Source: Agelas oroides (lineage: Eukaryota > Porifera > Demospongiae > Agelasida > Agelasidae). From it: a stretch of DNA of 64,000 nt. Each line of letters starts with the position of its first letter. The first letter of the stretch is position 1. Under the pieces are notes generated by a model that was given only the letters and a program-made list of their open reading frames with translations, did not search any database and was not told the DNA's origin. Location of the stretch: contig OX422184.1 in assembly GCA_949130485.1 (NCBI GenBank), positions 18,104,324-18,168,323 on the forward strand. The letters run 5' to 3'. Positions 22,401 to 38,214 of the stretch are shown here, one piece after another. The translations under genes were made by a program, and so were the position numbers.

Positions 22401-25400
22401 AGAACTTGAAACAGCATAAATTTGACAGCTTAGCAGTGGTTCCAAGCATGTAATATGCCAGCTGGAATTCGATGGAGGGCTAATAACTCTCTGTACCAGA
22501 TTTTGAGCCCTTTGTGAAGCCGATTTCCTGATTTACGATCACATGACAACTGACCAGCACAGAAAACTGTATGCGTACAAAATTAGAAAATGGCGTCCTA
22601 CGCAACAGACAGCAGTCAGGCAGTGCTGTGAACAGCTTTTTTGACCCTTGAAGCTATGAAGACGCTGAGTGCTTGGGAAGCTGTGCGCTCTGACGAGCAT
22701 CAATTTCGTGCTAAAATCAAGGTGAGTATCGAGTTATCATCGTTTGACAAGTTGTCTGAACAAAGAAGAAAAAAATACGAAAAATGGCACTTTTGCTACT
22801 GCACACTTTTGCGTTTAGCTGTTTTCCACGTGGCTTTTGGGCAACTATATGAGTCTTGCTGATCACAAAGAGGAAGCCTGCATGGGCGCTTAAATAAGCT
22901 TTTAGCGCATTTGTGGTGAAGTTATACAGCTTTTGCTTCATATATTGCGCGTCTACCGACTCTCTGATATTGGGGTGCAAATAAAATTATATATATATAC
23001 AAATAAATAACAACGTACTACACCGGCCATAGGAAGCATTGGGCGTCCAATCTAATTGGATATTTCGGTAATGGCATGGTAGACTTACGCCAGTTATTAG
23101 TGAGTAAAAAAAGTGTGATGGAAATATTTTGCTGTGTCTAGCCGTAGCATGTTGTGAACAAGACATTAATTCATGTTGGAAGTAGACTATATGGTACTAA
23201 CAATTATGTACCTACATCAACTTCCAATCACATTCTCTGACCTGCTGATATATAAAGTACCGGTAACTACAATAGGATTCCTTATGCCTGGCTTAAAGTT
23301 ATATATGTCTGTTTTAACCTTGCAGGATAGAATGTATTGTGTGGTATATCTCCACTTACTGCCTCAAACACTCCCCCTACCTTTTGCACTCACACACACA
23401 CACAAACTGCTCATAGCATCCACCCTTTCTTGCCCCATGCTGAAGGATCTTGTCCTGTTGCCAATTATCAACTGGTTTGACCTTGGTCTGCAGTTGAACA
23501 TTTCTGAAGATAACCTCAACATTATCAAACAGAACCACCCAAATGATGCAAAAGCTTGCAGACGTGAAATGTTTTCAGCTTGGTTGGAAATCGACCCAGA
23601 TGCCAGCTACAGACAATTAGTGGATGCTCTTCACACCATGGGATTCCGCAATATAGCGGAGCAGCTGTGTGCAAAATATGGTACATATTATTTGCACAGG
23701 TTGTTCTCTGGCATGCAAGGACACATAGCATTTTATGTGCCTGAGATTCATCCAGTAAACTGGGCAACTTCATAATATTTATACTACACACTTGTGATTG
23801 ATTTTAGTTCTGAATCAATGTCAACCGTTCTTTCATGTAGGCATACCTGTACAGCAGATCTCCCCTCAAGGCATGTCTCATCTCTCCTTCCTCAAAACAG
23901 ATAGTATGCCCTTGCTGAAACGCAGAAAATGTATGTTATGTTGCTACTACATTGTGTCATCTCATTTCAATTGTGTGCTTATTTAGTGAAACTCATGATG
24001 AACAGAGAAGTGTATGGTATAGCCAACATAGCTGGGTGTAGAATTGGATAGGAGAAAGGTGTTACCTTTATAGACCCTTGGCATAATCATGCAAGCATTC
24101 TTTATGTAGCTATGGTGATGTCAACTTTTTAATGGATTGTACATAATATTTGCACACAGTTCAGTGGTCAGTGACAAACTGTTGCTACACCATAACAGCA
24201 TACCTAATACCGAAATTTCCTACACGTGTACGTGGCAGCATCATTCCGAGAAGCTCAACACTTCAAGCAGCATGGAAGTGTACGAAACAGTTTGCTGCAA
24301 CCAAGGCTACAATGAATATAAAGCACTGACCGCTTCTTACCAAGGTTTTTGTCCACGATAGCCTTCTCCACCGTCTTGTTTGCAGGGCGATTGCTTGCGT
24401 TGGCAGACATGTTGACAACGATCGTTCAGGATCTGGAAGACCACTCTTCGGCTTGAAGTAGCTTCGAATTGACATCGCGAGTGAGGGCTAGCAGTGAACC
24501 AAGTCAAAAGCAGATTATTCAAAACCACCGTCTTTGTATGCACATCGCATGACATACCATAAATTTACACTGTCGAAATTTTTTTGCAGGTGTAATTTTC
24601 GAAAATATCAACACCAAACTTTTCCATTTTACGGTATCTAATTTTTTGTCACCCCCACTGCAAGTGTTCTATAGAGCATAATGATTTTGCCATGCATGAC
24701 GTATAGTTAATCTGTGTATTTGTGCGTTGTAAAACAATATGATCAATGCAAAAATTCATTTTTAATGATAGGACAGAAAGCAATAAACCTTTCTGCATGT
24801 TACAAACTTGTGGACCATCATAAACCTTAGGGTATCTTCCTGGTTCATCTACTCCTGTTTTGTCTACTGCCGTTCCAATTTCGTCTACTGCTGTTTTGTC
24901 TACTCAATTTTTCAGGTTAAAATTTATTTTTACGTGAGTATGACAGACAAACAATTGCTGCTTGAATACAGAATAATGACTGAGCATCAAGACCTAAATC
25001 CAATACCCAAAACGGCGGTGAACGAAACAGGAGTAGACGAACCAGGTATAATTCAACCTTAGTGTCTACTAACTGGTTTGTGTGCACTGGAAAGTGGGCA
25101 GAGTGCTGCTTTTCAGTGTATAATGCACTAACGGCATGTGTATTAATTTGTGTTTTGTTTATTTGATCTCATTTAGACACCTCCAGTGAACTTGAAGTAA
25201 ATCCGTCAACTTTAATCCCTCCACAACATGTTAAGATCAGTGTTTCAAACTGCCATGACACTCAGACAATCGTAGCAGTCAGTGAAGAGGAACTACATCG
25301 ATGTGATTTTGAGAAATTACCAGCTGTCAAAAAGTTTTGCCCTACTATATCCGTTCTTGACGATGATTCCCATTTGAAGTATCCAGTATCTTTTCTTGTA

Positions 25401-26594
25401 GATGTATATGAACCTCGAATGGAAAGAAAGAAATCTACCTGCTATTTGAAGATCACAAAACACCAAAGCTATACTTGGAGGAAAATGCTAACAATTATAA
25501 AACGTGGGCACATTACACTTGAATTTTGTTTCTTCAAGCCAAAAATACACACTATCAACTTTGATGTACATTCCATAATTGACTCTGAAGGCAATGAAAC
25601 TATAGGTTGGAATGTTACAACCTATGATTGTAACATTTGTGTAGTTTCACAAGAGTATTCTTCTCCCCAGCGTGGAGTCCCCCATATTCAGTTGGCCAAA
25701 CCTCTCAGTGAGTGTGATTATGATGTCTTCACTAAGCAATTTACACAACACAGGCTATCAGGAAATAGAAATAAGATGAAGAATCTCAGTGAAGAGTTAC
25801 AGTGGAACAAGCCTGAACGTGACTATGAAATTCTTGGGCTCATATTTAATGCTTCTTATCGTTGGCTTGTGAAAGACCCAGATTCGTTGGAATCCCCAGT
25901 ATTAAAGCTCAAGGAAGCAGTGAGCCTTTGTAAGAAGGAAGACTGTCAGAATGGATCTCTACTTGAAGCAAAAGCCCACATATTTTTAGCACAAAATTTT
26001 CAGAGTGCTCATTGTTATGATGAGGCCATGGGGTACATTGATGCAGCAAAAGTCAGTATTTGTTATGTAGATCTTTGCATGGAAAGGAGTGCCATTGCTA
26101 CTCAGGAAGCATTGTGGCATGCAGCTCAATGTGATCAACACATGCCTCTGGAAAAGAAGCGAAAAATTGAAAAATTGCTTTCAATCGCAATTGATAATGG
26201 CAAACGATTGAAAACCTATGAGGGATGGTGTTTCTTTGTGTATAACCTCATAAATATGGCAAGGTTACATCTTGATATTTTCTACCCATTCAGCAGTGGA
26301 CGACATCAGCATGTAACTGCTATAGACCCAAACTCCGATGCAGAAAAAGCAAAGTCATTTCTGGACCAAGTTCCTGAAGATTTCCTTTCAGACACTTCTA
26401 CATGCCTGTACAAAGCTTTTTACTACTACACTGTTGCAGAGTACCACTGCCATACAGAGAGTGACAAGGATGTGGTAATACATAACTTAGAGCTTGCCAA
26501 GAAACAATTGCAAGAGGCTGATCTCAGTCCACCAATGATGAAAGCTATTGACGTTAGACTTGCCCTACTGAAAGGCAACAGCCACTTTTCATGA
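19499..26594 (+). CDS. Two-Death-domain protein with an unrecognised beta-rich plus helical-repeat C-terminal module
   Basis: Exons that agree in phase are: a first Death exon ending at 19790 (ATG possible at 19499; true 5' start uncertain), 19921-19995, a second Death exon 23417-23680, 23841-23930 and the large last exon 25177-26594. All internal junctions are phase 1. The Death domains share DLVVLPISDWFSLG and DLVLLPIINWFDLG, an (N/D)DA/PQTCKR-type helix and a Y(R/H)QLV(D/V)AL end, matching the DD superfamily of apoptosis and innate-immune adaptors. The last exon encodes about 470 residues: first beta-rich (FLVDVYEP, EFCFFKPKIHTINFDVHSII), then amphipathic helices that look TPR-like (AKAHIFLAQNFQSAHCYDEA, LYKAFYYYTVAEY). 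I do not recognise this C-terminal family. No membrane segment or signal peptide, so a cytosolic adaptor is likely. The 3.4-kb intron between the Death exons is full of fold-back elements. Confidence 0.65.
21337..21428. mobile_element. Mutator-like fold-back, perfect 92-bp copy
   Basis: Exact 45-base arms (TAGCCTCGTTCCCAGGCC...) around a two-base centre. CATTACTCT flanks both ends exactly, a 9-bp target duplication. The intact symmetry suggests recent movement. In a Death-gene intron. Confidence 0.95.
21668..22302. repeat. Large fold-back built from two inverted MITE-like units
   Basis: About 125 bases at 21668-21791 recur as reverse complement at 22165-22302, separated by about 375 bases. 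Each arm is itself bounded by AAAAAGATGTAGGGATGG and its complement. A weaker relative (AGGGATGG ... CCATCCCTACAT) occurs at 43494-43566. Non-coding, in the Death-gene intron. Confidence 0.75.
24839..25046. mobile_element. 208-bp MITE in the last intron of the Death gene
   Basis: Terminal inverted repeats CCTGGTTC(A/G)TCTACTCCTG pair over about 35 bases. The aligned intron of the downstream paralogue (before 27779) lacks it, so it inserted after the duplication or was lost. An open frame inside (24916-25047) happens to be phase-compatible with splicing but is more simply element sequence. Confidence 0.7.
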
Positions 26595-26788: not shown

Positions 26789-29236
26789 GTATACCACTTG
26801 AGTCACACGCACAGCCCATCTCTCTTCAAGGCATACCCATTTCTTCACATCTCTCCTTCACAGCATATGGCATGCATATGTTGCTCTCACACCAGTACTG
26901 CTTGTTCAATAATGATGTACTAACTTATGATGAATAGAGAAGGTATGGTATGGCCAGCATATTTAGGAGGAAAGCACAGTGTCCTAGCTGTTTTGTGCAC
27001 AGACATTATTATGTTGTAAAGCATAACCACACACAATAGCAGTATTGGCAAACAAATGGAGTGTCGCTGCCAACAAATTTCTGGAATTGTGATCTGGAAG
27101 CACCTATGCAGTACTAGTGGTACCACATTCCACAAGCACCTTCACACTGGTCATATGTATGAGGTAAACTGAGAGCACCAAGCATAAACAGTGTCTCCTA
27201 TGGCTGTAGCCTCGTTCCCAGGCCCTGCCCAGCTTTCCGTCGCTTGTAGTTTCTGTACTGCAAGCAATGGAAAGCTGGTCATGCAGGGCTTGGGAACAAG
27301 GCTACTGAGTCAGAAGCGCAATGCATGATTGACATCTCCACATGTATGTAGACTTACCCACATTATAAGTGCACACTCTCACAAATATGCATACGGCAAC
27401 AGAATGTTAGAACTTGGAATAGTGTGATGGTGTAAGCTCTGCATGACCAACTAGGAAGCTACGAAGACTGTAGAAAAAAAGATTGATGCCACTTGTCTAA
27501 ACTACAACCAGCAATTACAAGAACCAAAACCTATATGCATTGTATAGTAAGAAAAGCTAGGAGCTTTCATCTTTGCATTTGTAGCACTCAGTAACTCTAG
27601 GCAACTGAACATCTCAAGGTGCTACTACTGTTATCATCAGCCTTATTGTTTGTTCACTGCAGTCCTTGAGGCAACTTTCTCGTGCTCACTGGAAAGTGAG
27701 TGCTGCTGTTCTAGTTAATTCATATATGTATGAAAGAGAGAAGTTATTCATTTGTGGTGTCATGTTTTTTTTATTCAGACCCCCTCTAGTGAACATGAAA
27801 TGAATCAGCTGACTTTATTTCCTCCACAACGTCTAAAGATCAATGTTTCAAACTGTGACCATATTCAAACAGTCACAGCCATCAGGAAAGAGGAATGTGA
27901 CTTTGAGAAGCTACCAGCAAACAAAAAATTTTGTCCTACTGTACATGTCCTTGACATGGATTCACCATGGGAAGACGCCGTGCATTTTCTAGTAGATGTA
28001 TACAAACATGGAATGCAAAAAAAGAAATCTACCTGCTATTTGTCTGTGACTATTTGTGATTATCCAAACTTGCACTTGGTCAAAGAACAGCATTACCGTA
28101 CACAGAAACAAGAGAAAGTGGGTTTACAGAGGGGACTTGTCACACTTCAGTTTTGCTTTTTTAAACCGACAACATACATTATCAGGTTTGAGGTGCATTC
28201 CATCGTTGATTCTGAAGGCAATGAAGCAATAGGTTGGAAAGCTAGCAGTTACCACCTTAAACTTTGTGTAACTCCTATGGATTATTCCACTCCCCAGCTT
28301 GGAGTACCACATATTCAGTTAGCCAAACCTCTCAGCAGTAGAGAGTATGACAACATCACTAAACAATTCACACAATACAGGCTATCAGGAAAAAGAATTG
28401 AGACGAAACGTCTTAGTGACTATTTGCAGCTGAACAACCCCAAACCTGACTTTAAGATCCTTGGACTTATTTTTAATGCTTCTTTTTATCGTTGGCTTGT
28501 GAAATACCCAGATTCACTTGATTCCCGAGTATCAGATCTCAAGAAAGCAGTAAGTCTTTGTGACAAAGGTGAATGTCAGAATGGATCTCTGCTCAAGGCA
28601 AAAGCCCACATATTTTTAGCACAGAATTTTCAGACTGATGACAACTATGAAGAGGCCAAGCAACACATTGATGCAGCAAAAGTTAGCATTTACTATGTTG
28701 GTCTTTGCATGGAAAGGATGGCTGTCGCTACCCAGGAAGCATTCTGGCATGTAGGCCAATGTTATGGAGACATGCCTGTGAAAACAAAGTGTGAAATTAA
28801 AGAAATTCTTTCTTATGCAATTGATTGTGGCAATCGATTAGAAAGCTATGAGGCAAGGTGTTTCTATGTGCTTAATCTCATAAATATGGCAAGCTTGCAC
28901 CTTGACTTTTTTTACCCATTCCGCCATGCACGACATCAGCATGCAACTGCTATGGACCCAAAACCCTGTGAAGAAAGTTTACGCAAAGCGAAGTTGTACC
29001 TGGACAAAGTCCCTGAAGATCTCCTTGCAGACCCTTGTGCATCTCTGTATAAAGCCTTTTACAACTATACTCTTGCAGAGTACCACCGCCACAGAGGGAG
29101 TATAAATGATGCTATATATAACTTAAAACTTGCTAAAAAACAATTGCAAGAATCAGATCTCCAAATGGAGCCACTGATGAAACCTATTGATATTAGACTT
29201 GTATTACTTAATAGTGAATGCCATATATACATGTAA
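26789..29236 (+). CDS. Second copy of the Death-linked C-terminal module
   Basis: Two exons, 26789-26916 and 27779-29236, are tandem duplicates of 23841-23930 and 25177-26594. The large exon encodes 485 residues and aligns end to end with the first copy, sharing GVPHIQLAKPLS, KAHIFLAQNFQ and AYHRH/AEYH-type helices; it has an extra loop near FLVDVYKHGMQKKK. No Death exon lies between 26594 and 26789. This is therefore either an alternative 3' end of the upstream gene, reached by splicing the Death exon ending at 23680 (phase 1) to 26789 (phase 1), or a separate gene lacking its Death region. The donor AATGAT/GTACTA at 26916 keeps phase 0 into 27779. The long intact frame argues for selection. 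Function unknown. Confidence 0.65.
27207..27304. repeat. TAGCCTCG fold-back, 98-bp diverged copy
   Basis: TAGCCTCGTTCCCAGGCCC and its imperfect complement bound a short centre containing GCAAGC. No target duplication survives. It lies in the intron of the second module copy. Confidence 0.75.
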
Positions 29237-30894: not shown

Positions 30895-31205
30895 CAAAAT
30901 CTTGCCTCAGCTGTAAATAAAAGACATTAAAGGTTTGCCATTTTGAGGCGAAGGAGAAGAAAGTGAAAAGTCAGCAGTTGCCAGGAATCAAACCCAAGGC
31001 CCCGTGCTCTGACCACTGAGTCTACAACCACCAGCCCCCATAATCGCCTCCATATACTGCACGGGTGGTACTGAATGCTTCAGTCACAACACCAAATGCT
31101 TTTTAACATCTTGCCTCAGCTGTAGTACAGGTTTGTTGTTTTTGAGGCAAAGGAACTACTACAGATACTATATTATGCCCCAATTTCTTCTCCTTTGCCT
31201 CAAAA
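30895..31205 (-). repeat. Composite repeat with a tRNA-derived SINE
   Basis: On the - strand about 30975-31055 reads TAGACTCAGTGG followed by GGTTTGATTCC, matching pol III A- and B-box consensus with normal spacing. This is a SINE head rather than a working tRNA, since no cloverleaf could be completed. Direct copies of CTTGCCTCAGCTGTA with TTTTGAGGC(G/A)AAGGA flank it (30901-30958 and 31105-31155), and an inverted copy follows at 31178-31205. Confidence 0.55.
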
Positions 31206-31340
31206 ACAACAAACAGAAATATTTCAAGTATTTTTGCATGAGTAACATCCCATAATGTCTTCATGAGAGAGCCTTAGTAGCTACGTGTACTTTACACAAG
31301 TGCACAAAACTATTCAAGGAGTGTATAGTTATAATAATGT

Positions 31341-34300
31341 TCAAAGTTGATACTTTTCTCTGAGGTATCTCCCAAGCTGTTCCTCCCCTAGAAACACCAC
31401 AGCATCAATGATGGTAGACCAGGTAGGGTGAGGATGTAATCTCTTCAGCCACACTCCTAGCATCTCAACAAGGCACTTGTGAGGGTCATGCTGGTGCTCT
31501 TCACTGATGGCCTTCAAGGTGGCCATTGGAAGATGGAGGTAGATGCCAATGTGTTCCCACTTGTCTGCGACTGTGTGGTAGAAGGCATCCATTAGATCCT
31601 TCAGCTCTGGTGATGGAACATGCCCTTGCCTCTCTGACACAACACCTGTTTATTTGATATAATGCACAATGACGATAGTACACAATTGTGATAGTTGCAA
31701 CATTTATGTCTACCTTCTGTTGGATCCAAGACAAGGTGAAAGTAATTCTTAGGTGCTCTGGCTCCATTCAGCTTGACCTTATATTGCAGTCGTACTGGCG
31801 TATCATCCTTCTTTTTCCACTCCATCATCAGTTCACACTCAGGGATCCACTGCCCTTCTCTGAACTCATCCACTTCCCTCCTGGCAATCTACACAAGATC
31901 AAAAGTTTAATTTTTTGCTGAGAGAAATAAATCCACGGGAAAAAATCCCGGGGAATCAGCTGGGATTCACACCCAAGACTTTCTGAATACTAGTCAGACA
32001 CTCTTATCAAAAGTACTGCTTGTAACTTACACTAGGATAGGACATTGGAGTTATCTTCCATCCCTCCCGTGTAAGCTGCCCATCTTCTGGAATGTCCAGA
32101 GTTATCTCACTTCTTTGAAACACAACCTTTAGTGAAGTGTCCCTCTTTGCGAAATGATCATAGTGGTATTTCACAGCCTGCAGGCGTGAAGTAAAAAGAC
32201 ATAATGTAGCTAAAGCTAGAGACACAAGGACATGCTACATATTCTGCCTAAAGTGGAGGAATTTTAAATTCAGCATAGACTCACTGACTCACTGTAATTT
32301 GGGCATCAATGTTTTGCGTGATAACAAGGTAAAACCTCCAATCATACACCTGCTTCATAGTGTGGTATAAGTGTGCACAGTAAGACCGTGGGGTGTTCTT
32401 TCCCCCAGTAACAGCGATCCCAGAGAAGTGGCTCAGCTGGATGCTGCCAAAGGAGTTATGGGTGGTGAACACTCCTCCATCCAACTGCCTGAAAAGGTAG
32501 GGAAGGTCTCTCTGTGAGCATTTGGCAGAGACAAAGGCAAGGTGAGACACTGCTGCCTCATCCTCTCTGAGTGCACAATGTTGGATCTCCAATGTCACAG
32601 GTTTTGTAAACCTGCACGGTGCTGCAATCCAGAAGACTGGACTGAGGAAGTCTGAATCCCCAGGAAGCTGAAAGTGTCCAGAGAGACTCACTCGAATGTT
32701 GATTGTACACTCTCCCGTGCCTGGGCTAGCAGTAAAGCTGTCTTTGGGAACATAAAGCTTCATTCCATAACCTCTCCATTCAAAACAACCTCCTTGGTCT
32801 AGAACTGTGAACTCTGTTTCTCCTACTATCTCCACCCCACGAACAAAGCCTGAAGAAAATGAGTGAAGTTCAGTGCACAAAATAGTTAAGTCATGTGTAT
32901 CAAACAGGAAATGGATTATTCCACATCTGATTCAAATGTATACAAAATACAGATTTAATTTGAATGAAACTTGGCTTGCATATAGTGTCTGTAGGTATTA
33001 CCCCACAGTTCAATTTTAGCATTCTATATTGTATGGCTTCAGAGTTAGGACCCAATTTTTCAGCAAATTTAGCTTGCCTGTTGTTACTAAATCAACCATA
33101 ACTTAGATTGAGATTAACTTTATGACCCAGGGATATACTTGTTCATGATACCAAACAAAGGGGAATCTTGCCAGCTACAAGCAGTGTGAATTGTAGGTTA
33201 TAAAGTTAATCTCACTCAAAATTGTTTGGTAAGCTAAAAATATAAACTTTTCATCTAGCTCTAACTCTGAAGCAAAACAATGTAGAATGCCGAAAATCAC
33301 TGTGGGTTAATATCTCAGCAGACACTATGTACAAACCAAGTTTGTCCAAATTTGTGTGGGTTAAGGATTGATTTGACAGGGAATGTCCCATATACAGTGC
33401 TGATGCAACCGTGCTTAAAAGGTGTTTTGTGGTGCAAGAAGAGTCCTCTACCTACCAGTAGTTGCTGCGACAGTAGGTTCACCATGTGTCTGGACAGCTG
33501 AATCCTTGTAATCAGGGCTGCTCTGGACAGCGACATCTCTGCAATCTGGCTTACTCTGCTGCTCTTTGCTCTTAATTAGAGAAACATCTGACTCAAGCAC
33601 CTTCTTGCTTTCAGACATCTAAAGGGAAAGGAAAATTCAAACACCATGCATTAATATATCACTACAAAAACAAAGCTGTTATTTTAGCTAAGTATTTGGT
33701 TACTACAGTTGCGTGACTATCCTTACAAATTTTATGAAAGCAGTGCTGGAAAAGAATTCATGCAGTGGGAGTTGATATACTTGAGTAAACTTGTTTAGCC
33801 TCCCACTAAATGTTTTAAAAGCATTACATTCTTTGAATTAGCGTAGGAAGGACAGTCATGCAATTGTAGTAACCAATTTTGCTAAAACCATAATTTTGTT
33901 TTTACAGTGATGCATGCAGTGCTACACAGCTTACCAGCGAAGGTGATGGTGTTGTAACAGATGCTTTGTTGAAGAAATGTTCAATCCTCTTAGCCAGCTC
34001 TCCCATCTGAATAGCACAAAGTTTCTCCAGTAACATCTTCCAGGTGGGGGGCAATGCACTCATTCCTGCAAGCCATGCTTTAAACATGGCTTTTGGTCTC
34101 TCAATGGGATTGTTTTCTGCTCTAAGATCAGTTACAGTGGAAGGATCCAGGTGTAGCGCTGCAGCCATTCTAAGAAACTTGGGAGCTAGCTGGTTGTAGA
34201 TGGAAATGCCAGCTACTGCTTTTAAACGTTCAATTGCACTCACGGTAAGTTGTCCTTCGGGAAATGCGGCAACTGTAGAAAGATATCGATGGATGGCTGA

Positions 34301-35396
34301 GCTCTATCTGGCTCTACTGTACATACTCAAAATGATAAATTCATCAAGCAAATTGCCTAACTAAATCGAATACAATGTATACTCACTTTGTATTTTTGCT
34401 CTGAATGCACAAGATAGTGTTTTCTTTTTTGCTTCACCTCCAACTGTTAGCAGCTCTCCTGTGGGAAGAATTATGGTGCAAGTGGAGTGGCAGGCAACAG
34501 GCAGGTCCCCCACATACACCCAAGTATTTGTAGGGTTTGAGTAAAGATAGACGGCAGAGCTGTATGACTGTCCTCCAGAGGAACCTCCTACAGCTGCCAA
34601 CTGCTTTCCAATTGTAACAGGTGTACACCACTCAAGAGGTGCATTGGGCAGTTTTTTCCACACTGATACTTTCCTATTCCTGTCTGAACTAGTGGTACTT
34701 ATCAGAGAATGCAAGGAAGTGCAAAAAACTTCTCTCTCCTGTTCATCTCCACCAGCCAGGTACCAGATACCATTGAGCAAACTGGACTTCATGAAATAGT
34801 CTGCCTTTGGAAAAGGTTCGACCCTCCGCCACTGGCGGCCATCATACACTTGCACAACATCCAGTGGATCAAGGTTATTATCTAATCCCCCAGCTACTAT
34901 GAGGTGGTGGTCAGTGCTCACAGCGGATGATCGACAACATTTGATTGGCATAGAAGGCAGGGATTGCTTCCATTGTTGTTGGTCAGCATCCAAAACACAC
35001 AATTCATCAGTGAGATTCAGAGTAACAGGATTCCTACCTCCCACCAGCACCAGTCGTGAGACGTAGATTGTGAGTGCATAGTTCTCGGTGGGAGTGTCAA
35101 GTAAGTCCCATGAATTGTCAGTGAAGTCATATATCAAGAGTGTAGCTGGTGAACCAGGATGAACGTTTCCTCCTCCCATGTAAACCTTTTCTCCCAGCAA
35201 CACTGCCTGGGCATCAGACATGCCCAGTGGCATCTCACCGCACTCTCTCCATTCTAGTGATACAAGAGGGTTGAGTAGGTCAATCTGAGGCTGGAGAAGA
35301 CAGTGCTATAATTAAAAGTGTAAATGGCTACTCGGGTGACAGATCTAGACACAAAATATGGTTTGCACGAAACTATACCTCAGGCCGACGATCCAT
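31341..35396 (-). CDS. Kelch-Death-ZU5-Death protein, complete, eight exons
   Basis: Exons on the - strand: 35379-35396 (start MDRRPE), 34387-35290, 33935-34272, 33456-33618, 32293-32849, 32031-32177, 31714-31888 and 31341-31645 (stop TGA). All have GT-AG ends and compatible phases, summing to 868 residues. Residues about 7-307 are a Kelch-type beta-propeller (repeats with AGGLDNN, LAGGDEQ, VGGSSGG, VGGEAKK). About 320-405 is a Death domain (LAPKFLRMAAALHLD, KAMFKAWLAG). 475-610 is ZU5 (GMKLYVPKDSF, LSPVFWIAAP, TKPVTLEIQHCA). 610-765 may correspond to a UPA-like region. 775-868 is a second Death domain (WEHIGIYLHLP, CLVEMLGVWLKRLHP). ZU5-Death arrangements occur in UNC5, PIDD and ankyrins; an N-terminal Kelch propeller on one is unfamiliar to me. 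Likely a cytosolic scaffold in death or innate-immune signalling; that is inference. Confidence 0.85.
31930..32015 (-). repeat. tRNA-derived SINE fragment in an intron
   Basis: Read on the - strand: GATAAGAGTGTCTGACTAG, then GGTGTGAATCC (nine of eleven B-box bases) and CCCAGCTGATTCCCCGGG. It is tRNA-like but incomplete. Intron between exons 6 and 7 of the Kelch-Death-ZU5-Death gene, same strand as the gene. Confidence 0.5.
32957..33348. repeat. Fold-back element in intron 4 of the Kelch gene
   Basis: Arms of about 100 bases or more pair (CTTGGCTTGCATATAGTGTC against the complement of 33260-33348), and an inner pair around GAGATTAACTTTAT continues the hairpin. About 390 bp in all, non-coding, moderately diverged. 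Target duplication not found. Confidence 0.7.
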
Positions 35397-35498: not shown

Positions 35499-38214
35499 GT
35501 AGAGTAGTTGCTACTATTATGGGACGGTTGGTATTATGAGACACTTCCGAATTTTTTGTTCAAACTTACGTGGGAGACAGAGTACCTGTAGGTTAACTTG
35601 TTGGTAGCTCCGCCCCCTGATACTTCCGGATTTATAGGGTCAGAGGTCACTATCTACACCAATTAGAGCACATTAACTTGATTAAGTACGTCCATGTGAG
35701 CGCGAGCTTCATCAACTAGCCACGTGGTGATCACTGGTCTCGCTCTGATCTTGTCTGGTTGTCAAGTTCTCCGCAGGTATGTGATAATCTCTCTAGAAAT
35801 TATGTTCTAATGTGAGCAAATTTTTAATAAAACACTCATACTCTAAATGCACTTTTTTTGTATGTAGACTGTCATGGCATCAGTAAAAGCAAAAAGGAAG
35901 CAGTGGGCTCCTAAGAGCATGCAAGAAGCTTGTAAAGCTGTGAAAGATGAAAACATGAGCCTTCGTGAAGCTGCTAGAAAGTACAGTGTTCCTGTTGAGA
36001 CTTTACGCAGACGTACTGCTGGCCTTGTGAGTCTTGATTGCCGTCCTGGTCCACCTACCGTTCTCACCAGTGAAGAGGAGACTCGTTTGGCAGAATATTG
36101 TGTTGCTATGGCTGATATGGGGTTTGGTTTAACTTGAGAAGGTGTGATGGCCATGGCGTTTGCTATTGCAGACAAAACTGGTTGGAGCCACCCTTTTAAA
36201 CAAGGCTATGCTGGGAGAGGATGGTACGAAGGCTTTATGGTAAGGCAAGCCACTCTTACACTGCGCACACCTCAGGCATTGTCCTACGCACGTGCTGTTT
36301 CTTTGAACAAGGAAACAATTAACGATTTCTTTGCGAAGCTTGGTGCAATCTATGGGCGGCTGAACCTAATTGCTAAACCAAGTCAAATCTTCAACGCAGA
36401 TGAAACTGGGGTTACTATAGTTCACAAGCCATCCAAAGTAATTGCTCAAATTGGACGACACAATGTGCCATCGATAACTTCAGCAGATAAAGGAAAGACA
36501 CATTCGATCTTAGCTTGTGTATCTGCCAGCGGACAAGTGTTCCCGCCGTTCATGATATACCCAAGGAAGCGACCTATACCTGAAAAACTAAGAGAAGGAG
36601 CCTATCCGAACACAGTGTTTCATGTGAGTGACAACGGTTGGATCACGAAAGAACTATTCTATGAATGGTTTAAGATGTTTGCTGAGATGATTCCCCCTTT
36701 GAGACCAGTGCTATTGGTGCTGGATGGACATGGCTCACATATCACTATTGACGTGATTGAGTATGTGCGGTCTAAGGAAATACATCTTCTATGCTTGCCC
36801 TCTCACACTTCCCATATATTACAGCCCTTGGATGTAGGGGTTTTCAAATCGTTCAAATCCTTTTTCTCCAAGGCATGCCGTCAGTACATGGCCAAGAACC
36901 CAGGACGCGTCATAACCGAAGATATCTTGGCTACTGTAGTCGGTGATGCATTTGCACAGTCTCATACCCCATTGAATATTCTTGGTGGTTTTAAGAAATC
37001 TGGCATCTATCCTTTTAACCCTGGTCAAGTGAGCGATCGACAGCTAGCTCCATCAAAGGCACTTGTGAAACCATCCCCTCAACCTCCAACATTTTCTCCT
37101 GAGCAAATTGAATTATTTGAACAAAGGTATGCAGAGGGTTATGATGTGCCAGACCCAACCTACCTAGCATGGAAAAGCGTGAACTATCCTAGCCCTGAGA
37201 GTGTTGTGAGTACAACAACAGCTATCAGTTCTCCAGGATCGTCACCATCAGCTATTGCTGGTACATGTATGTCTACTGTTCATACTGCTACCTCACCTAG
37301 CACCACTTCATCGGTCTCTTCATCTTCTGTGAAGACAAAACAAAGTTCAGAAGAGGTATTGAGTGAATTACTGACATTGCCTCAACCTCCACCACCTAAG
37401 AAAAGTCAAAGGAAAAAAGCTGTGAATCACAAAGCTACTGAAATCACAGATCCTGCTGTTCTACAAGAATTGAAAGATAAACAACTTGCCGCAGCTGAAG
37501 CTAAGAAGGAGAAAGAAGAAAAGAAGTTGGAGAGAGAACGAAAAGCAAATGAGAGAAAGCTGGAGAAGGAGAGAAAGAAACTGGAGAGAGAAAAGAAAGC
37601 ACTAGAAAAAGCAAAGACAAAGGAAAGAAAAGCGCAAGAGAGTAGAGGTAAAAAGAGAAAACCTCGATCTACATGTACCAGACGTGCAACAAGCCCTACA
37701 ACTGATGACCTTGACTCACTGTTTCGCAGCTGGAGATTGATGAAGATAGTGAAGATAATGGACAGTGTTCAAATTGTGGAATGTGTTTTGGTGATGAGCA
37801 GGATGAAGACAAGTTCTGGGTATGTTGTGACAAATGCAACATGTGGTTTTGTTTTGATTGCCACAACTTTACCACTAAAGACACTCTTCCTGATGAGTTC
37901 TATTGCTTGAAATGTGTGTAAGATCTTTCTTTTCTTCTTATTATGATGTAATAGAGTCACTGCATGTTTGTGTTCGTAAACTGTAATTTCTAACTGTCTC
38001 ATAACTCGTGCTGTCCCATATGCATTGAAATCGGTTCAACATGTTTCAGATCCTATAGAGCCAAAACCACTAATGCTACAGTAAATTTTACAAGATTCCT
38101 ACATACTAGAAGCACTGATGAACCTTTAAAAAAAAACGAGCAAAAAACATTCAGTAGTTTAGAAGTTACGATCAATTAAAAGTAAGTATCTCATAATTGC
38201 CCCATCTACTCTAC
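35499..38214 (+). mobile_element. Pogo-like DNA transposon, about 2.7 kb
   Basis: GTAGAGTAG followed by ATTATGAGA(C/T)ACTT occurs at the left (35499-35546) and inverted at the right (38183-38214). The left end has about 20 extra bases between the two blocks. TA occurs at both outer edges, consistent with a TA target. The enclosed frame is a pogo/Tigger transposase. The terminal sequence differs from the CAGTGGA-type MITEs elsewhere in the window, so this copy is not their obvious parent. Confidence 0.7.
35874..37921 (+). pseudogene. Pogo/Tigger transposase with C-terminal PHD finger, disabled
   Basis: Starts MASVKAKRKQWAPKSMQEAC, a psq-type helix-turn-helix (residues about 8-55). A CENP-B-like DNA-binding region, then the DDE_1 catalytic core follow: FNADETG, LLVLDGHGSH and LQPLDVGVFKSFK carry the three aspartates. 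A Ser/Thr linker and a Lys/Glu-rich coiled segment (near 37480-37640) lead to a PHD-type zinc finger (CSNCGMCFGDEQ, FWVCCDKCNMWFCFDCHN, FYCLKCV). One in-frame TGA at 36135-36137 splits the DNA-binding and catalytic parts; it looks like a CGA to TGA change. The PHD finger lies in a different frame from the core, the shift falling near 37700-37735, and no phase-compatible intron was found. Otherwise intact, so a young dead copy. Confidence 0.8.

Follow-up and report, generated by a model that had tools for sequence, protein, structure and literature searches.

A demosponge gene that joins a Kelch propeller to Death-like, ZU5 and Death domains and carries a candidate autocleavage motif

To our knowledge, self-cleaving sensors built on ZU5 and UPA modules are known mainly from vertebrates (PIDD, NLRP1 and CARD8). 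PIDD has the layout LRR-ZU5-ZU5-UPA-Death, human NLRP1 also bears an N-terminal death-fold domain, and UNC5 (ZU5-UPA-Death) is a membrane receptor. The cut falls at the end of ZU5, at HF/S in PIDD and at SF/S in CARD8 and NLRP1, according to PMC3210808, from which some of the PIDD layout is also taken. In the same paper, His-252 of CARD8, which is retained in UNC5b, is required for autoprocessing, and the UNC5b residue that matches Phe-296 of CARD8 is Leu-677. Genes that join NACHT to ZU5 are known in early animals (PMC12909245), and beta-propellers occur on death-fold or TRADD-N proteins of other marine animals (PMC8195603). Here we describe a gene of the demosponge Agelas oroides, carried on the minus strand of a 64,000-nucleotide stretch of contig OX422184.1 (positions 18,104,324 to 18,168,323, assembly GCA_949130485.1; the whole stretch is called the window below), whose predicted protein runs from a six-repeat Kelch propeller through a Death-like domain, a linker, ZU5 and a region at the position of UPA to a Death domain. 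We found no description of this Kelch-Death-ZU5-Death architecture among literature titles and the starts of abstracts, a search that left most subscription journals outside and so does not show its absence from print.

The window protein resembles PIDD1 in its repeat-type head, its ZU5 with an HF/S motif and its C-terminal Death domain, and differs from it in having Kelch for LRR, an extra Death-like domain before ZU5 and no detected UPA; because it has no LRR and one ZU5 rather than two, it is not a PIDD. With NLRP1 and CARD8, in which the FIIND (ZU5-UPA) is followed by a CARD, it shares a ZU5 that ends in a cleavage motif, then a further module and, at the C terminus, a death-fold domain, but its motif is HFS rather than SFS, its last domain is Death rather than CARD, and it has neither NACHT nor LRR. 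UNC5 likewise places ZU5 before a C-terminal Death domain, but has leucine for the motif phenylalanine (PMC3210808) and no Kelch; the sponge protein, with no transmembrane segment expected and hence no membrane part, is not an UNC5 receptor. MACC1 and its homolog SH3BP4 also bring ZU5 together with two Death domains (for MACC1, PMC11585957), but there both Death domains are C-terminal, an SH3 domain is present and Kelch is absent, whereas the sponge Death domains flank ZU5. Nor is it a KLHL protein (BTB-BACK-Kelch), because it has no BTB; BACK is likewise unmatched, and its N terminus is a six-residue exon. Large sponge expansions of Death-fold proteins have a counterpart in the Death-superfamily and TRADD-N expansions of Amphimedon (PMC8195603), where the proteins carry TRADD-N with WD40 or other propellers and where the word 'Kelch' is absent from the main text. 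Viral contigs gave no match, and a single prokaryote match (63 residues, 30%, in a metagenome-assembled genome of a rumen Bacteroidaceae) was taken as chance.

We rebuilt the gene exon by exon at window positions 35396 to 31341 of the minus strand and recovered eight exons that encode 868 residues, with one terminal stop, no internal stop, GT-AG at all introns and consistent phases, which reproduced the exon count, phasing and length proposed in a sequence-only reading of this DNA. The gene is real and well formed, and it is probably functional. Its features are as follows.

35379..35396, minus strand: exon 1, a micro-exon of 18 nt and the first coding exon (MDRRPE), with an ATG and a GT donor
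34387..35290, minus strand: exon 2, the Kelch propeller, residues 7-307, with six GG-containing repeats (PF24681, Kelch_6)
33935..34272, minus strand: exon 3, the first Death-like domain, about residues 308-410 (hhalign profile comparison)
33456..33618, minus strand: exon 4, the linker, residues 421-474, with boundaries kept in paralogs and a recurring AVQ-type motif
32293..32849, minus strand: exon 5, ZU5 (PF00791) ending S-H615-F616-S617-G, with the UPA-position region beginning after it
32422..32430, minus strand: codons of H615-F616-S617, CACTTCTCT, with the candidate autocleavage site F616/S617 (coordinates read off the sequence)
32031..32177, minus strand: exon 6, UPA-position region (gene model and paralog conservation)
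31714..31888, minus strand: exon 7, UPA-position region (gene model and paralog conservation)
31341..31645, minus strand: exon 8, the C-terminal Death domain (PF00531; Pfam match at residues 782-850) and the stop

Pfam searches with the whole window protein bore out the Kelch, ZU5 and C-terminal Death calls of the sequence-only reading, each scoring above its cut-off. Kelch was matched by PF24681 (4.6e-21) and Kelch_6 (6.6e-20), and its repeats show GG at residues 45, 90, 140, 186, 241 and 290, with one extra GG at 245. ZU5 was matched at residues 488-572 (1.3e-5, 25.8 bits against a cut-off of 21), and Death only narrowly (6.5e-5, 23.4 bits against 22.6); the exon-8 open frame alone scored 20.4 bits for Death, which is under the cut-off, and the C-terminal piece 25.0. 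Within the gene family, ZU5 was matched in 9 of 9 members of alignment A1 and 9 of 9 of alignment A2, and Death in 8 of the 9 members of A1; the ZU5 profile from A2 also matched the ZU5 domains of ZO-1 (1.3e-4) and ankyrin-1 (0.0043). No Pfam match in the window protein was found for BTB, BACK, F-box or RING, nor for SH3 or extracellular Ig or TSP domains. Hydropathy over 19 residues peaked at 1.23, and we therefore expect no transmembrane segment.

The ZU5 of the window protein ends in GSIQLSHFSG, with HFS beginning at residue 615. HFS is present in all 12 family members whose ZU5 exon was covered and is invariant in alignment A1, and the wider SHFSG context is likewise invariant in the 12 while the residues after it vary. 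One ZU5 histidine is invariant in A2 and might correspond to His-252 of CARD8. Judging from the motif, we consider it reasonably likely that the window protein cleaves itself at the end of ZU5. Cutting between F616 and S617 would part Kelch-Death-ZU5 from UPA-like-Death, yielding parts with computed masses of 67.7 and 29.5 kDa.

By analogy with the vertebrate proteins, we lean towards a model in which this member of a demosponge multigene family makes a cytosolic protein, a sensor or scaffold that probably cleaves itself and is akin to PIDD, NLRP1 and CARD8 but equipped with a Kelch head. After folding, S617 would attack the carbonyl of F616, as happens in PIDD (HF/S) and in CARD8 and NLRP1 (SF/S), and the 68-kDa Kelch-Death-ZU5 and 30-kDa UPA-like-Death products would remain associated. 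Binding of a ligand or removal of the Kelch half would then release or reorient the C-terminal Death fragment, which could assemble with Death-domain partners (adaptors or caspases); the genome has 32 matches to Peptidase_C14 (caspase-type). The first Death domain would serve as a separate docking surface for the N-terminal half, so that a cut between the two Death domains would leave two fragments, each with a Death docking surface of its own. We infer that the propeller is coupled in this way to Death-fold assembly. The protein may be a danger sensor that shares the plan of human PIDD or NLRP1 but has another sensing head, and a function in sponge immunity or self-recognition would fit its features. 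If this model is correct, an early-branching animal would possess a propeller-headed sensor system of the PIDD/NLRP1 kind, and sponge cell-death signalling would become testable by one point mutation (S617A).

Several observations weigh against such a self-cleaving sensor. HFS also occurs in 15 of 23 other ZU5 genes that we examined, and the remaining eight have HFC (four), HLC, HIS, QFS or QLS, the ZU5 ends of the distant non-family genes having been aligned by eye. Because HF recurs with other next residues and HFS occurs outside the family, conservation of the motif may be partly structural. The ZU5 fold itself could not be modelled with any confidence (pLDDT 33), and within the stretches examined the C-terminal Death domain was without a match in 2 of 10 paralogs. 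UPA (PF17217) gave no profile match in 9 of 9 family members, none was detected by Pfam, NCBIfam, a PDB profile or a genome search, and the genome-wide negative extended to the controls, which leaves the sensitivity of that search unproven. Because of this we name the UPA region by position only; the 'possible UPA-like region' of the earlier reading is present in that sense, and its caution was justified. The first Death domain, also called in that reading, had no Pfam match in the window protein; an AlphaFold2 model made from the single sequence, with no alignment, showed four helices at low confidence (mean pLDDT 60), and a Foldseek search with that model returned nothing significant, the ankyrin-G Death domain coming fourth (E 3.7). 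Profile-profile comparison speaks for the call: in hhalign, a 12-row family profile of the domain matched a sponge Death profile that pools eight further Death loci from the same genome (probability 93, E 2.4e-7) and also matched Death 2 of the family (probability 94, E 1.3e-7), each in a single comparison. There was a weak match to the ankyrin-1 Death domain as well (E 0.47). We therefore treat it as Death-like.

A non-cleaving scaffold would make HFS merely structural, with ZU5 either packing on the C-terminal Death domain and keeping the protein closed, as in the closed state of UNC5, or dimerising. Dimerisation via ZU5 is found in MACC1, which has ZU5, SH3 and two Death domains (PMC11585957), and the many non-family ZU5 genes with HF followed by C, or with HFS, also suit a scaffold; the invariance of SHFSG in 12 of 12 family members, set beside the leucine of UNC5b at the position of the motif phenylalanine (PMC3210808), argues against one. 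On balance we regard a non-cleaving scaffold as rather unlikely.

Kelch propellers are frequent substrate receptors, and the propeller could accordingly be a substrate-binding or E3-adaptor head through which the protein, instead of sensing a ligand, governs how Death-fold partners are turned over. In line with this, the Kelch domain of KEAP1 binds DPP9 (PMC11773481) and DPP9 restrains NLRP1 via the FIIND (PMC8081665). We nevertheless find such an adaptor improbable, given that BTB, BACK, F-box and RING are all unmatched, that exon 1 encodes only six residues, and that in-frame sequence upstream is broken by stops in 14 of 14 paralog loci. Micro-exons resembling exon 1 (ATG..GT) lie 5' of Kelch at seven of the 14 paralog loci examined (MDRPPE, MDRSPE, MDCPPE, MDGPQQ, MDHPASE, MDHDSK and MDRPPQ; two located by the spliced aligner described below and five read by eye) and were not seen at the other seven.

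The conclusion that the locus is one gene, and one of a multigene family, is well supported by comparison across the genome (259 Mb, 141 contigs), which we searched for ZU5 and Death. ZU5 gave at least 117 matches with E no higher than 0.1, and Death at least 150 (150 of 150 scored, among 870 candidates). The Kelch part of the window protein gave 132 matches and the remaining part 114. Among 53 Kelch places examined (the 45 best and 8 picked of 132 rows, with the window gene included), 23 had a ZU5 match no more than 3.5 kb downstream on their own strand. The other three arrangements together account for one, in which the ZU5 is part of the gene ahead in a tandem pair. At the 29 Kelch places with at least 48% identity, a downstream ZU5 was listed in 22, tblastn added two, and five had none. 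We then ran a purpose-written spliced aligner, with the window protein as query, on 22 stretches; 11 carry Kelch, Death 1 and ZU5, all without stops (one has only part of Kelch in the stretch, and one has an N gap in Death 1).

Exon structure is kept across these 11 paralogs. All share the Kelch/Death intron at residue 308 (phase 1) and the later introns at 420-421 (phase 0), 474-475 (phase 1) and 660 (phase 0); the intron at 709 (phase 0) is found in 10, the C18 stretch ending at that point; of the 10 that continue further, nine have the intron at 768-777 (phase 1). Three family members show an extra linker intron, which may be an aligner artefact. When four paralog proteins were mapped back to the window, all four returned exons 3-7 and the end of exon 2 exact to the base, and three of the four also the start of exon 8, a comparison that is not fully independent because the paralog models were built with the window protein as guide. 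That two neighbouring genes (Kelch; Death-ZU5-Death) were wrongly merged, a possibility raised in the sequence-only reading and one that ZU5-Death cores without Kelch nearby (C8:3.15M and C11:0.38M) could favour, is, as judged from the DNA, rejected as very improbable, since the phase-1 Kelch/Death intron in 11 of 11 paralogs and the placement bias of 23 against 1 point the opposite way. The relatives without Kelch have upstream a Death-like open reading frame (ORF) recognised by eye (C8:3.15M) or a Pfam Death ORF (C11:0.38M); C2:25.53M has a kinase ORF on its upstream side, and C10:1.67M a Kelch of another type. Each of the four is a neighbour that may belong to a separate gene. Two Kelch-ZU5 genes on C10, at about 0.80 and 0.84 Mb, gave no first-Death match, and their forced alignments contain two stops and one stop, respectively. 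Many ZU5 matches in the genome have no listed Kelch nearby, and ZU5 and Death are both greatly expanded.

The family and its mosaic origin, like the HFS motif, go beyond the sequence-only reading. Pairwise dN/dS was below 1 in 35 of the 35 finite comparisons among 36 (six pairs by six regions; one dS was saturated), ranging from 0.13 to 0.53 in domains and reaching 0.90 in the linker, and by this measure the family is under purifying selection. The Kelch part as a whole showed no sign of positive selection in these pairwise ratios, which describe whole regions rather than single sites; mean pairwise identity was higher in ZU5 (74%) than in Kelch (62%).

The two halves of the window gene group differently. 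In its 5' half it falls with the C14 and C8 genes (split support 100), in its 3' half with the C6:8.27M gene (support 100). Identity to the latter gene is 85% across the UPA-position region but drops to 56% in Kelch and to 48% in Death 1. The C-terminal Death domain of the C6:7.53M gene is a different one (27-29% identity), and none was found for the C14 gene in the stretch examined. The family is thus mosaic, and the simplest reading is that cassettes have been exchanged among paralogs. Diverse Kelch heads and swapped C-terminal cassettes could then tune inputs and outputs. We offer tentatively the fuller proposal that these are Kelch-headed self-cleaving sensors, cut at SHF/SG between two Death domains and diversified by swaps of 5' (Kelch-Death) and 3' (UPA-like-Death) cassettes. 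If true, the PIDD-type cleavage motif joined to a Kelch head in a whole family of sponge genes would suggest an old switch whose sensing head has been exchanged.

Around the gene, a transposase ORF of the DDE_1 (pogo/Tigger-like) type, whose tail looks cysteine-rich and PHD-like by eye, occupies window positions 35868-37921 of the plus strand. It lies on the opposite strand to the gene, some 470 bases upstream of exon 1. Just past the stop codon lies an inverted repeat with 24-base arms (31131-31154 and 31191-31214), perhaps a small transposon, noted by eye. Two tandem ORFs on the plus strand (25167-26591 and 27734-29233) are 60% identical to each other and have no Pfam match; with a Death exon upstream of them at about 23470-23667, they possibly represent an uncharacterised Death-fused family. 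Rfam gave nothing at the gathering threshold in the window. On other contigs, C141 (22.4 kb, of which 20 kb was examined) is a mitochondrial genome, with TGA read as tryptophan, 22 tRNA genes in the examined part (ARAGORN) and an atp9-like ORF recognised by eye; its cox1 is interrupted, and within it lies a LAGLIDADG-like ORF (L073:4641-5777, by eye). Among animals, mtDNA that carries atp9 is a mark of demosponges, and this contig accordingly suggests one. A second COX1 match, at G000:C107:16176-16808, contains no TGA codons and perhaps derives from a symbiont or an algal organelle.

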